From contig NZ_SMTK01000001.1 in assembly GCF_004357995.1 (NCBI RefSeq), positions 248,001 to 312,000 on the forward strand: DNA of 64,000 bases. Direction: 5' to 3'. The translations under genes were made by a program, and so were the position numbers. Numbering within the stretch: the stretch's first letter is position 1; each line of letters starts with the position of its first letter. Shown piece after piece: positions 11,076 through 16,318 of the stretch. The stretch comes from Arthrobacter crusticola (GTDB taxonomy: Bacteria > Actinomycetota > Actinomycetes > Actinomycetales > Micrococcaceae). The notes under the pieces are model-generated. The model was not told the origin of the DNA, did no database searches, and saw only the letters and a program-made list of their open reading frames with translations.

Positions 11076-11138
11076 TAGCGGCTTTCGCTCATCGGCTTCC
11101 CCCGAGAACCTTTCATCCTTGACGTGGAGGTGGCGTTA

Positions 11139-11495
11139 ATGGCGGCGAAGGATGAACTGGGACGGCGGGGCGAGGCGGCCGCTGCGGAGTTCCTCGAAGC
11201 GCGGGGGCTGCAGGTGGTGGACCGGAACTGGCGCTGTCCCACAGGAGAGATCGACTTGGTGGCGGTGGACGGGGCGACCCTGGTCATCGTCGAGGTCAAG
11301 ACGCGCACCTCCGAGGATTTCGGGCACCCGCTGGAGGCGATCAGCACGGCGAAGCTGGAGCGGCTCTATGTGCTGGCCTCCAAGTGGGCCCGGGCCCACC
11401 GGCAGCGCTTCGCCGGCTTCCGCGTCGATGCCGTGGCCATCCTCGATGACGGTGCGGGCAGTCCTCGGATCGAACACGTCCGGGCGGTGATCTAG
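11139..11495 (+). CDS. yraN: YraN family endonuclease-like protein (UPF0102)
   Basis: 118 residues with the nuclease fold of the Holliday-junction resolvase/restriction superfamily: GRRGEAAAAEFLEARG (8-23), GEIDLVAVDG (about 36-45) and EVKTR (54-58), which give the E/D...D...ExK pattern. The biochemical role is not settled. The ATG is chosen over an upstream GTG because GGAGG lies 8 nt before it. First gene of a DNA-processing operon: comM overlaps its stop (TAGTG). Confidence 0.93.
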   Translation: MAAKDELGRRGEAAAAEFLEARGLQVVDRNWRCPTGEIDLVAVDGATLVIVEVKTRTSEDFGHPLEAISTAKLERLYVLASKWARAHRQRFAGFRVDAVAILDDGAGSPRIEHVRAVI

Positions 11496-13033
11496 TGGCG
11501 TTGGGCCGCACCTACTCGGTTGCCCTGGTGGGGCTCAACGGCTACATCGTGGAGGTCGAAGCCGACATCGGCCAGACCCTGCCGGCATTTGTCCTCCTTG
11601 GCCTGCCGGATGCGTCCCTGAACGAGGCGAAGGACCGGATCCGGGCGGCCGCACGGAACGCCGGGGTTCCCCTCAGCCGCCGCAAGATCACCGTGAACCT
11701 CGTTCCGGCGTCACTTCCCAAACGTGGTTCAGGGTTCGACCTTGCCATCGTGATGGCGGCACTGGCCGCCGCGGGGGACGTCAGGGGATGTGGGCGGACG
11801 GTGTTCCTTGCCGAGCTCGGCCTCGACGGGCGCCTCCGTCCGATCCGCGGCGTCCTTCCGGCGGTCATGGCGGCCGTCTCCGCAGGGTACAGCGACGTCG
11901 TCGTGGCCATCGGCAACCGGGCAGAGGCAGCACTCGTCCCGGGTGCGGAGGTATGGGGTTACCGTTCCCTCGCCGAGGTGCTCCTGGCCTACGGAGCCGA
12001 TCCGGCCGCGGTGCAGTCGTCGAGTGGAGATGAGCCCGAGGCGCAGGAGGAGGATCCCACTCAGCCGGATGTCGGGGAGCACCGCGATCTTGCGGATGTC
12101 GCAGGCCAGGCCGAGGCCCGGTTCGCTTTGGAGGTCGCTGCCGCCGGCGCCCATCACCTGATGATGGTCGGTCCACCCGGCGCGGGAAAGACGATGCTCG
12201 CTGAGCGGATGCCCGGTATCCTGCCCGACCTTGATGACCAGCACGCCATGGAGGTCACGGCCATTCACTCGCTCAGCGGTACGCCGTGTGACACCCTCCG
12301 AAGGCGCCCACCCTTCGAAAGTCCCCACCACACGGCCACGGCGGCCGCAATCATTGGAGGTGGGAGTGGCATACCGCGACCGGGTGCGGCCTCGCGGGCG
12401 CACCGCGGCGTGCTGTTTCTCGATGAGGCTCCGGAGTATGAGCGGCGGGTGCTCGAGGCCCTGCGAGAGCCGCTTGAAAGTGGGTCCCTCGTACTGCACC
12501 GGTCGGCGGGAACGGCGGCCTATCCCGCCCGGTTCCAGCTCGTGCTCGCCCTCAACCCGTGCCCGTGCGGCCTCGCCTCGGGGAAGGGTACCGAGTGCCA
12601 GTGCACGGCACAGCAGCGCCGGCGCTACTTCAACCGGCTGTCCGGTCCCTTGCTCGACCGGGTCGACCTGCAGCTTTCGGTCAACAGGGTTGCACTGGGT
12701 GACTATGTCAGCGGAACGGCAGGGGAGAGCAGTTCCAGCGTTGCTGCTCGAGTGCACGCGGCAAGGAATGCGCAGGCCCAGCGGCTTTCCCGCTGGGGCT
12801 GTTCAACGAACGCCGAGATCCGGGGCCGGGTCCTGCGGGATGAACTGCGCCTGCCGCCCGGGGTCACCTCCGCATTGGACCGGGCGCTGGAACGCGGCCT
12901 GGTCAGCGCCCGAGGCTGGGACCGGGTGCTCAAGGTCGCTTGGACCGTTTCCGATCTCGCCGGACACATCCGTCCGGACCCCGACGACGTGTCGGTGGCG
13001 CTGGGCTTCCGCTTACAGGAGCGAGCCGCATGA
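11495..13033 (+). CDS. comM: YifB/ComM family AAA+ ATPase
   Basis: 512 residues. Seen: N-terminal Lon-type beta fold (1-170, with VNLVPASLPKRGSGFDL), a charged linker, then the Mg-chelatase-like AAA+ core with Walker A GPPGAGKT (226-233), GVLFLDEAPEY (305-315), and the NPCPCG cysteine loop. ComM is a hexameric helicase that promotes branch migration during natural transformation in other bacteria. The start is GTG overlapping the yraN stop; its own stop overlaps dprA (ATGA), so the three are coupled. Confidence 0.96.
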   Translation: MALGRTYSVALVGLNGYIVEVEADIGQTLPAFVLLGLPDASLNEAKDRIRAAARNAGVPLSRRKITVNLVPASLPKRGSGFDLAIVMAALAAAGDVRGCGRTVFLAELGLDGRLRPIRGVLPAVMAAVSAGYSDVVVAIGNRAEAALVPGAEVWGYRSLAEVLLAYGADPAAVQSSSGDEPEAQEEDPTQPDVGEHRDLADVAGQAEARFALEVAAAGAHHLMMVGPPGAGKTMLAERMPGILPDLDDQHAMEVTAIHSLSGTPCDTLRRRPPFESPHHTATAAAIIGGGSGIPRPGAASRAHRGVLFLDEAPEYERRVLEALREPLESGSLVLHRSAGTAAYPARFQLVLALNPCPCGLASGKGTECQCTAQQRRRYFNRLSGPLLDRVDLQLSVNRVALGDYVSGTAGESSSSVAARVHAARNAQAQRLSRWGCSTNAEIRGRVLRDELRLPPGVTSALDRALERGLVSARGWDRVLKVAWTVSDLAGHIRPDPDDVSVALGFRLQERAA

Positions 13034-14220
13034 ACGCCGCCCAGGAGAGCAGTACCACGATCGCGCGCGCAGCATTGTCACGGCTGTTCGAACCTTCGGA
13101 CGCCGTTGGGCTCGCTCTGGTGGCTGCGGCAGGGCCTCGCGATGCGCTTCGGATTGCCACCGGAGGTCTGAAAGCGGCCGGTGACATAAAGGAGGAGATT
13201 CAGGAGCTGCTCGCGCCGGGCGAAGGCCGGGGCAACCTGCTTGACCGGGCGCTCGAACGCTGGGCGCCCCGCCGGCCCGATCTGGCGCCCGAGCGGGACC
13301 TCGCCACACTGGCTCGATTCGGCGGACGCCTGCTGACCCCTGAAGCGGAAGACTGGCCGGGCGCCCTTGAGGACCTCCAGCTTGCAGCACCAGTGTGTCT
13401 GTGGGTCCGCGGATCGGTTGACGTGCCGCCGCTCCAACGGATGGTGGCGCTCGTGGGATCCCGCGACAGCACCAACTACGGCGCCTCGGTCACGGCCGAA
13501 ATGGCATCGGGCCTGGCCATGAAAGGGTTCACCGTTCTCTCCGGCGGGGCCTACGGAATCGATGCCCAGGCCCACCGCGCGGCATTGGGGACCTCAGGCA
13601 CGGCCCAGCCTCCGACGATCGCCGTCATGGCCTGCGGCGTGGACCGCTACTACCCGGCAGGCAATGAGGAACTGCTGCGTACCATCGCGCGGGACGGACT
13701 CGTCATGTCCGAGGTTCCGCCGGGTTCTTCCCCTACCCGATGGCGCTTCCTCGCGCGGAACCGGCTCATCGCAGCCCTGGGCGCCGTGACGGTTGTCGTG
13801 GAGGCCCGGTGGAGGTCCGGCGCCCTCAACACCGCCCACCACGCCGCCGGGCTCGGGCGCCCTGTGGGAGCCGTCCCGGGATCGGTCTACTCAGCAAACT
13901 CCGCGGGCTGTCACCGGCTCCTTCGGGGCGGAAGCGCCATCTGCGTCACGGATGCGTCCGAGGTCGCTGAGCTCGCTGGTCCGCTCGGGACCCACCCTGA
14001 AACCGATGTTTGTGTTCCTTCAAGCGACCACGACGGACTGGCCGTGCAGGACATCCTCCTGCTCGATGCCCTGCCACTGAGGATGTACTCCTCCATCGAC
14101 AAGCTTGCAACGGTGGCCGGGCTCGGATTCCGGGACGTCCTCGCCGGGCTGGCGCGCCTCGAGCTCGCAGGGCTTGCCCTCCGCGGCCCGGAAGGGTGGA
14201 GGCGGGCACCGAAGTCCTGA
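13030..14220 (+). CDS. dprA: DNA-processing protein DprA
   Basis: Loads RecA onto incoming single-stranded DNA during transformation. 396 residues. Seen: N-terminal helical region, Rossmann core with VGSRDSTNYG (142-151) and SGGAYGIDAQAHRAAL (171-186), ARNRLIAALG, and a C-terminal winged-helix-like end (about 335-396). The ATG overlaps the comM stop. A longer frame from 12940 is a shadow of comM. Followed after 53 nt by the alkyltransferase-like gene. Confidence 0.96.
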   Translation: MNAAQESSTTIARAALSRLFEPSDAVGLALVAAAGPRDALRIATGGLKAAGDIKEEIQELLAPGEGRGNLLDRALERWAPRRPDLAPERDLATLARFGGRLLTPEAEDWPGALEDLQLAAPVCLWVRGSVDVPPLQRMVALVGSRDSTNYGASVTAEMASGLAMKGFTVLSGGAYGIDAQAHRAALGTSGTAQPPTIAVMACGVDRYYPAGNEELLRTIARDGLVMSEVPPGSSPTRWRFLARNRLIAALGAVTVVVEARWRSGALNTAHHAAGLGRPVGAVPGSVYSANSAGCHRLLRGGSAICVTDASEVAELAGPLGTHPETDVCVPSSDHDGLAVQDILLLDALPLRMYSSIDKLATVAGLGFRDVLAGLARLELAGLALRGPEGWRRAPKS

Positions 14221-14273: not shown

Positions 14274-15326
14274 ATGAGACAGCATTACCGTATTGAAAGT
14301 CCCATCGGGGATTTGATTCTTGTGGCGGCACAAGGCGGCCTCGTCGGTGCCTACCACGAACGGCATGACCCGCCGCCCGGAGTGGTCCTGCTGGGGGAGC
14401 CCTGGCAGGAACACCGCCCGGGTCACCAGAATGCCGGACACCCGATGGCAGGGGACCCGCCAGGCATCGAGCCAAGCGCCACCGCCGGCCCCGGATCGAA
14501 CGGAATGGCGCACAGAGAGCACGGAGGCTCTACGGGAAGGGATGCGGGCCGAGTCCTCCTCGACGCAGCCCGACAGCTCGAAGAGTATTTTGCAGGAACC
14601 CGACGCTCTTTTCAGCTGCTGCTCCTCCCGGCCGGCACGGGATTTCAGCACCGCGTATGGGCCACCGTCGCCAGGATTCCTTACGGTCAGACACGCACCT
14701 ACCGAAGCATCGCCGCGGCACTGGGCAACCCCGCCATGGGCCGGGCCGTCGGTGCCGCGGTACGGGCAAACCCTTTGTCGATCCTCATCCCGGGCCACCG
14801 GGTCGTCGCGGGAAACGGAGCGCTTGCAGGGTACGCGGCCGGGATCGATGCCAAACGTTTCCTGCTCGACCTCGAAGGAGCGGCCGTTTCGGAGGGGGTT
14901 AACACAGCGCGGATTGCTGCCGGGGAAGTAGGCAGGACCCGGCTCATCGCCGGGCCGGTCACTCCGGGCGAGAGCGCGGCAGCGACCGCCCGAGAGAGCG
15001 CGGCGGCGACCGCCGGAGTGAGCGCGGCGATCAGCGGAACGGATGGCCCGGCGGCCGCCGAGGTAGAGAATGCTGCGCCACCGGCGGCGGAAACGCCTGC
15101 GGCCCGGGCGTTGGAAGTGGCGGTGGAAACGGCGGCGGTCGAAGGCGCGTCGCCCTTGGTCGGAAAACCGGCGCGGGCCGCGGCCGCGGGAAGTTCGGCC
15201 CGAATTGCCATGGCGGGAGCGGGCGGCCCACCGGGCGGCTCCGGGCGAGGTAGGTCCCGCGGGAAACAAAGGGACCTCGTGCCCGGAGCGCCTGTTGGAC
15301 GCGGTCACCAGGAAGGAGCAGAGTAG
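14274..15326 (+). CDS. Ogt/MGMT-like protein lacking the active-site cysteine
   Basis: 350 residues. The C-terminal half of a methylated-DNA alkyltransferase is clear: FQHRVWATVARIPYGQTRTYRSIA (124-147), RAVG with the base-flipping Arg157, NPLSILIPGHRVVAGNGALAGYAAG (166-190). The invariant PCHR(V) reads PGHRV, so the alkyl-accepting Cys is Gly174 and the protein cannot repair by self-alkylation. Alkyltransferase-like (ATL) proteins with Trp or Ala at this site bind O6-alkylguanine and recruit nucleotide excision repair. Two further oddities: a roughly 60-residue Gly/Pro/His-rich insert (30-88) and a roughly 145-residue Ala-rich tail (206-350) with tandem repeats. Ribosome site GAGGAG precedes the ATG. 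It lies between dprA and xerC. Confidence 0.85.
   Translation: MRQHYRIESPIGDLILVAAQGGLVGAYHERHDPPPGVVLLGEPWQEHRPGHQNAGHPMAGDPPGIEPSATAGPGSNGMAHREHGGSTGRDAGRVLLDAARQLEEYFAGTRRSFQLLLLPAGTGFQHRVWATVARIPYGQTRTYRSIAAALGNPAMGRAVGAAVRANPLSILIPGHRVVAGNGALAGYAAGIDAKRFLLDLEGAAVSEGVNTARIAAGEVGRTRLIAGPVTPGESAAATARESAAATAGVSAAISGTDGPAAAEVENAAPPAAETPAARALEVAVETAAVEGASPLVGKPARAAAAGSSARIAMAGAGGPPGGSGRGRSRGKQRDLVPGAPVGRGHQEGAE
14970..15017 (+). repeat. two 24-bp tandem repeats in the alkyltransferase-like tail
   Basis: Two near-identical 24-bp units beginning GAGAGCGCGGC encode the repeated peptide ESAAATA, followed by a decayed third unit (ESAAI-like). The length of the low-complexity tail probably varies between strains through these repeats. 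Confidence 0.7.
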
Positions 15327-15337
15327 AGGTCCAAGAA

Positions 15338-16318
15338 CTGTACAAAGCCGGAAGGGAGCTGGACATCGCTGTCGCGAAGACTCCCGCAGGCAAACCGGCG
15401 GCCGACCTCTCACCGTCGTTCGCCGACGCCGTCGACAGGTACAGGAGGTACCTCGAGGCCGAACGTAACCGTTCCGAGCACACGGTCAGGGCCTACCTGA
15501 CCGACCTCGAACTGCTGCTGGGCTTCGTCCAGGCCCGGGGCACCGAACGACTTGAGGACATGGAGCTCAGCGACTTCCGGGCCTGGCTGGGCTCGCTCGA
15601 CAGCGCGGGGCTGTCCCGCTCCACCATCGCCCGGCGCGCGGCGACTGCCCGCAGCTTCATGGCCTGGGCCGAGCGCGAAGAGTTGATCTCGGTCAATCCC
15701 GCGCTCCGGCTGCGGGCGCCGAAACGGGAAAAGTCGCTGCCCCACGTCGTCACTCGTGCTCAACTTGACTCCATCTTCGCCTCCCTCGAGGAGGCGGCTG
15801 CGGCGGGGGAGGGTGGCGCCCTTCAGGCCCGCGCTATGGTCGAACTCCTCTACGGCACCGGCATCCGCGTCGGAGAGCTGACCGGACTGGACATCGACGA
15901 CCTGAACACCGAGCGGCGTACGCTCACGGTCCTCGGCAAGGGCAACAAGGAGCGGACGGTTCCCTTCGGTGTGCCTGCGGCCCACGCGCTTGATGACTGG
16001 CTGCGGCGCGGGCGGCCCCAGTTCTCCACTGCGGCCAGCGGACCGGCAGTGTTCCTCGGCCGGCGCGGCGGCCGGATCGACCAGCGCGCGGTGCGCGGCA
16101 CCGTCCAGAAAATGTTCGCCGCTCTCGGCGGCACCTCGGCCTCGGGGCCGCACGCCATCCGCCACAGCACCGCCACTCACCTCCTCGACGGCGGCGCCGA
16201 CCTTCGGGCCGTGCAGGAGATCCTGGGCCACAACAGCCTGGCGACAACCCAGATCTACACGCACGTCTCGGTCGACCGGTTGCGCCGGAGCTACGAGCAG
16301 TCACATCCCCGCGCATAA
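15338..16318 (+). CDS. xerC: tyrosine recombinase XerC (start codon unusual)
   Basis: Site-specific recombinase that resolves chromosome dimers at dif with XerD. Seen: SAM-like core-binding domain (SFADAVDRYRRYLEAERNRSEHTVRAYL), catalytic Arg in YGTGIRVGELTGL, Lys in VLGKGNKERTVP, HAIRHSTATHLL with His and Arg, LGHNSLATTQIYTHV with His and the nucleophile Tyr. No ATG, GTG or TTG exists in frame between the upstream TAG near 15255 and ATG 15560, which lies inside the N-terminal domain. Candidates are CTG 15338 (AGAGG 8 nt upstream; used here), CTG 15359, or ATC 15365 behind AAGGGAG. A sequencing or assembly error is the other explanation. Follows the alkyltransferase-like gene by 11 nt. Confidence 0.9.
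   Translation: MYKAGRELDIAVAKTPAGKPAADLSPSFADAVDRYRRYLEAERNRSEHTVRAYLTDLELLLGFVQARGTERLEDMELSDFRAWLGSLDSAGLSRSTIARRAATARSFMAWAEREELISVNPALRLRAPKREKSLPHVVTRAQLDSIFASLEEAAAAGEGGALQARAMVELLYGTGIRVGELTGLDIDDLNTERRTLTVLGKGNKERTVPFGVPAAHALDDWLRRGRPQFSTAASGPAVFLGRRGGRIDQRAVRGTVQKMFAALGGTSASGPHAIRHSTATHLLDGGADLRAVQEILGHNSLATTQIYTHVSVDRLRRSYEQSHPRA

Follow-up and report, generated by a model that had tools for sequence, protein, structure and literature searches.

A cysteine-less Ogt homologue between dprA and xerC

The window, by which we mean the whole 64,000-nucleotide stretch of Arthrobacter crusticola DNA analysed here, carries between dprA and xerC an open reading frame for a full-length homologue of the Ogt alkyltransferases (AGTs) whose active-site motif reads PGHR (Table 1); a preliminary description of this DNA had given the frame, the motif and the placement between the two genes, and each stands as described, the placement recurring in orthologous loci. 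Besides the PF01035 profile, the TIGR00589 'ogt' profile matches the window protein (E 1.7e-28). Over its 350 residues the protein holds no cysteine at all, which excludes alkyl transfer to cysteine by the window protein, and we rejected a substitute cysteine acceptor on the same count. The preliminary description had further singled out an insert and an Ala-rich tail as departures that set the protein apart. Neither is a diagnostic family feature: the insert differs in length among species and is disordered in the predicted model, and the tail is confined to the species of the window and to two of its close relatives.

Table 1. Genes and protein features around the Ogt homologue, in window coordinates.
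Feature	Coordinates	Strand	Basis
yraN, upstream	11124-11495		ORF
comM, upstream	11495-13033	+	ORF; synteny
dprA, upstream neighbour	about 13030-14220	+	ORF; synteny in orthologous loci; gap to ogt homologue 53 bp
Cys-less full-length Ogt homologue, 350 aa	14274-15326	+	ORF and translation; PF01035 E 8e-30 (profile search)
N-terminal domain of AGT type, start (residues 1-41)	14274-14396	+	AlphaFold pLDDT about 90-95; alignment of M. tuberculosis OGT starts at residue 2
Variable, predicted-disordered insert (about residues 42-93)	14397-14552	+	pLDDT under 50 for residues 50-69 and 78-85
C-terminal DNA-binding/active-site domain (residues 120-203)	14631-14882	+	PF01035 match, residues 124-202
Base-flipping Tyr143 (human Y114); basic residue 144, specific to the clade	14700-14705	+	alignment
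Arg157, arginine finger (human R128)	14742-14744	+	alignment
Asn166, hinge (human N137)	14769-14771	+	alignment
Gly174, replacing the reactive Cys (human C145)	14793-14795	+	codon GGC; PGHR for PCHR
Ala-rich C-terminal tail	14883-15323	+	dN/dS 0.35-0.70 in the tail; in-frame length differences
xerC, downstream	15338-16318	+	start codon uncertain, CTG at 15338 a candidate

The start of xerC has its own peculiarity. In the window (15254-15560) and in its two closest relatives (L050 and L051) neither ATG nor GTG precedes the conserved N-terminal domain in the xerC frame; at the place matching window position 15338, the window and L051 offer nothing but CTG, and L050 a TTG. Most xerC starts in other species of the genus are ordinary. 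The gene may use a non-standard start or be coupled to the gene before it. Weak scans of the region found no promoter-like match from dprA into the ogt homologue, and a sole terminator-like match inside the homologue that is within chance.

A fixed slot in three genera of Micrococcaceae

Within the genus of the window (the Arthrobacter agilis group), an orthologue was matched in 36 of 38 genomes, made up of 37 relatives and the window's own; the two genomes in which none was matched are 68% and 83% complete. All 36 orthologues have Gly at the acceptor site and adjoin dprA wherever flanks were read. The order comM-dprA-ogt-xerC holds in own-genus loci with flanks, xerC going unmatched within the flank of L008 and its copy L055. 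A scan of 84,980 species, with motifs taken from this genus only, returned 27 contigs of the same type, largely the own-genus species again under their names, all with Gly and all beside dprA; every match outside the group had PCHR. All but one of these contigs are named Arthrobacter (A. agilis, A. echini, A. bussei, A. ruber, A. cheniae, A. subterraneus and unnamed species). The remaining one (L060) is titled Vibrio cholerae strain 35D and carries an Arthrobacter comM-dprA-ogt-xerC locus; this record is most likely mislabelled or contaminated.

Across a sample of 32 Micrococcaceae genera, an Ogt homologue fills the dprA-xerC slot in two genera besides the window's own. In the second genus the acceptor residue is Thr (PTHR, 29/29 species), so the group is not purely Gly-type; in the third it is Gly in both species, with a changed hinge. 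Among the loci of these two genera, xerC was not matched in the flank of L150. None of the remaining genera whose dprA locus was read gave an Ogt match between dprA and xerC. Altogether 67 orthologues were read, with Gly or Thr in all and Cys in none. A nearly constant pair of cysteines (RCCF) sits in the N-terminal domain of the Thr-type orthologues (L144-L172) and is absent from the window protein.

At the level of the class, the pattern NPxxxxxP[non-Cys]HR, which misses Trp, Ser (TCN) and the THP context of the third genus, occurred in one of 257 genomes, the window's own, and its PCHR version in 42 of 60. Cysteine-less AGTs may exist outside the Micrococcaceae, where our search was by motif only.

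The same survey bears on what can be read from the neighbours. In most of the sampled genera the default order is comM-dprA-xerC with no ogt homologue in it, and since this run exists without the gene, its neighbours say little about function. The preliminary description had proposed a role on incoming transforming DNA, in which the protein would check single strands held by DprA or ComM for alkylated bases. Its position in the operon and the ability of AGTs to act on single-stranded DNA (PMC10779285) would suit such a task if the carriers were naturally competent and the protein interacted with DprA or ComM, but the gene run is widespread in the family with or without the gene. The proposal came from the neighbours, the link to transformation is positional only, and we regard a reader dedicated to transformation as quite unlikely.

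Descent and selection

In a tree built with the active-site column removed and L050 left out, the cysteine-less proteins of the three genera form one clade (ultrafast bootstrap 98, SH-aLRT 97), with support of 99/99 for the window's own genus and 98/97 for the Thr genus; the nearest rows to the clade are canonical Micrococcaceae Ogts with PCHR. Independent losses of the cysteine at one locus are not favoured by this single, well-supported clade. A DprA tree keeps the carriers together except for one unresolved non-carrier, with weak support, and would fit one gain of the gene, perhaps with a loss. Elsewhere in the family, an otherwise canonical Ogt of another Micrococcaceae genus (L049, genome G109) has an isolated PGHR; it is placed among cysteine-bearing proteins in the tree, which makes it a separate loss event.

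Selection on the C-terminal domain is extreme, with dN/dS of 0.008-0.019 over residues 96-203 when the window is compared with its two nearest relatives; over the whole gene, all pairs computed gave 0.05-0.36. Values so far below 1, together with the complete lack of PCHR among relatives at the locus, answer the two doubts that the preliminary description had raised against its own reading. The defining catalytic residue is missing, as it might be in a decaying pseudogene or through a sequencing error; against either stand the identical residue in 36 of 36 genomes of different species, the whole-gene ratios and a reading frame kept through many insertions and deletions. We reject a strain mutation or read error on the first of these points and a pseudogene on the second, and give such explanations practically no weight.

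Retained residues and predicted fold

Among 59 aligned cysteine-less proteins, the residues by which AGTs grip DNA and flip a base are kept: the base-flipping Tyr in 58 and the arginine finger, which the preliminary description had noted in the window protein, in all 59. The hinge Asn is present in 56 (28/28 in the own genus and 28/29 in the Thr genus) and replaced by His in the third genus, where the Tyr158 region of the two species has changed too. His175 and Glu201 are invariant (59/59 each); with the third genus set aside, Tyr187 and Asn166 hardly vary. A basic residue follows the flipping Tyr in 58 of the 59 cysteine-less proteins, as against 2 of 45 canonical ones. All canonical Ogts aligned have Cys at the acceptor site. 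The arginine finger is itself replaced by Gln in 15 of 24 aligned canonical Micrococcaceae Ogts (from L088-L112).

The AlphaFold model, which covers residues 1-210 (mean pLDDT 84, insert disordered), predicts an AGT fold with both the N-terminal and the C-terminal domain. It superposes on the DNA-bound M. tuberculosis OGT with a Z of 22.9 (1.7 A over 155 residues), and across the M. tuberculosis OGT structures 155-161 residues align at Z 21-23; alkyltransferase-like proteins (ATLs) superpose on its C-terminal domain only (80-82 residues, Z about 10.5-10.9). Measured against what defines an AGT, then, the predicted protein has both domains, the pocket Tyr, the arginine finger, the Asn hinge, the His and the Glu, and has Gly174 where the I/V-PCHR-V/I motif has its cysteine. 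Measured against ATLs such as Atl1 and YbaZ, it differs in having an N-terminal domain, in carrying Gly (Thr in the second genus) where ATLs mostly have Trp, and in keeping the Asn hinge. The description of the protein as a Gly-type ATL holds in part: the Gly is real and fixed, and the kept base-flipping residues fit an ATL-like damage reader, but the protein does not belong to the ATL family.

These residues also bear on whether the protein recognises lesions at all. It could instead be a structural or single-strand-binding accessory to processes served by DprA, ComM and XerC (recombination, transformation, dimer resolution), binding DNA without lesion specificity and keeping the pocket as an empty relic. 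That three genera keep the gene at one place, between dprA and xerC, that a basic residue has been gained next to the helix-turn-helix Tyr and that the pocket of the third genus is partly altered would all accord with this, as would the finding that AGTs bind single-stranded DNA through the charged surface around the helix-turn-helix (PMC10779285). However, the comM-dprA-xerC run is the default without the gene, and in the two larger genera the pocket, the hinge and the His/Glu pair are conserved as much as the helix-turn-helix; we hold such an accessory role to be rather improbable, if worth keeping in mind.

Comparison with known alkyltransferases

To our knowledge, the acceptor cysteine has been described as universal in AGTs. 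The nearest solved relative, M. tuberculosis OGT (4wx9, 4bhb), shares with the window protein both domains, the helix-turn-helix, the fold over the whole length, the arginine finger, the Asn hinge, the His and the Glu; unlike Ogt/AGT (MGMT) proteins, the cysteine-less clade has Gly or Thr for the acceptor, a basic residue after the flipping Tyr and, in the own genus, a variable disordered insert. With ATLs (S. pombe Atl1, 3gva and 3gx4; V. parahaemolyticus ATL, 2kif; E. coli YbaZ) the clade has in common the missing acceptor cysteine, the kept DNA-binding and base-flipping residues and a superposable C-terminal domain, whereas the N-terminal domain and the Asn hinge, both found in the clade, are absent from ATLs, which have a capping loop instead of the hinge and mostly Trp at the site occupied here by Gly or Thr (PMC10779285). 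The open-access literature yielded no description of a Gly- or Thr-bearing AGT, or of an Ogt adjoining dprA. Thermus TTHA1564 is an Ala-type protein, likened here on its description.

Laboratory mutants in which the cysteine has been replaced (human C145A; S. tokodaii C120S, 7e1p) come close in another respect, being full-length AGTs with a small residue for Cys; there the change is engineered, and here it is natural and fixed across genera. Human C145A is catalytically dead and no longer repairs, but its binding to unmodified linear DNA is as tight as that of the wild type (PMC4150771). A crystal structure of human AGT on O6-methylguanine DNA exists (1t38). The same mutant speaks against a changed chemistry, in which water held by the His-Glu pair would remove the alkyl group and the protein would act as a multiple-turnover dealkylase instead of a suicide transferase. 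The invariant His175 and Glu201, the nearly constant Tyr187 and Asn166, and the small size of Gly and Thr would be compatible with such a reaction; nevertheless, C145A carries out no repair, the His and Glu may merely hold the fold, and we found no precedent, so that dealkylation appears very improbable.

The carriers have other members of the family as well. In the window's own genome we found the second, cysteine-bearing Ogt-like gene whose presence had been a matter to check (L002, PCHR), together with a short ATL-type gene with PWWRV (L003). All 12 carrier genomes checked, from the three genera, hold three or four PF01035 genes; every further longer one read has Cys (PCHR), and the further short ones have Trp (PWWRV) in 6 of 6 read. 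In L003 (1279-2464), the Trp-type gene lies divergently beside an ORF that, by eye, resembles a DnaQ-type exonuclease.

A candidate reader of alkylated bases

As far as alignments and trees can show, one clade at a conserved locus has lost the acceptor cysteine, is under strong selection and retains the residues for binding DNA and flipping bases. We propose, at a probability of roughly 55%, that these proteins are non-transferring readers of alkylated bases which became ATL-like through an independent loss of the cysteine. A single loss of the cysteine, no later than the common ancestor of the three genera, would be most likely, with Gly or Thr then becoming fixed at the acceptor site. Such a protein would bind DNA through the usual helix-turn-helix, flip into its pocket a base, probably O6-alkylguanine or one like it, and hold it there with the alkyl group not taken. 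It would thereby mark or shield the lesion and leave it to a different pathway, for instance nucleotide excision repair, as ATLs do when they bind O6-alkylguanine DNA, do not repair it and recruit nucleotide excision repair. Lesion binding, the lack of transfer and a hand-off, be it to nucleotide excision repair or to the DprA/ComM machinery, are inferred.

Two considerations weigh against a reader. With a Trp-type ATL homologue and a cysteine-bearing Ogt homologue already in these genomes, there would have to be a niche for a third protein that deals with alkyl lesions; and the catalytic His-Glu pair is kept, which a mere binder might not need. Lesion binding, furthermore, may be confined to part of the clade, because the third genus has changed both the hinge Asn and the Tyr158 region.

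The clade offers a natural test case for the roles of the AGT fold besides repair, in a lineage fixed across three genera of soil bacteria and under very strong selection. With it one can ask if the sensing of damage and its hand-off arose repeatedly in evolution, and if proteins of the AGT fold have a part in recombination or in the uptake of DNA.
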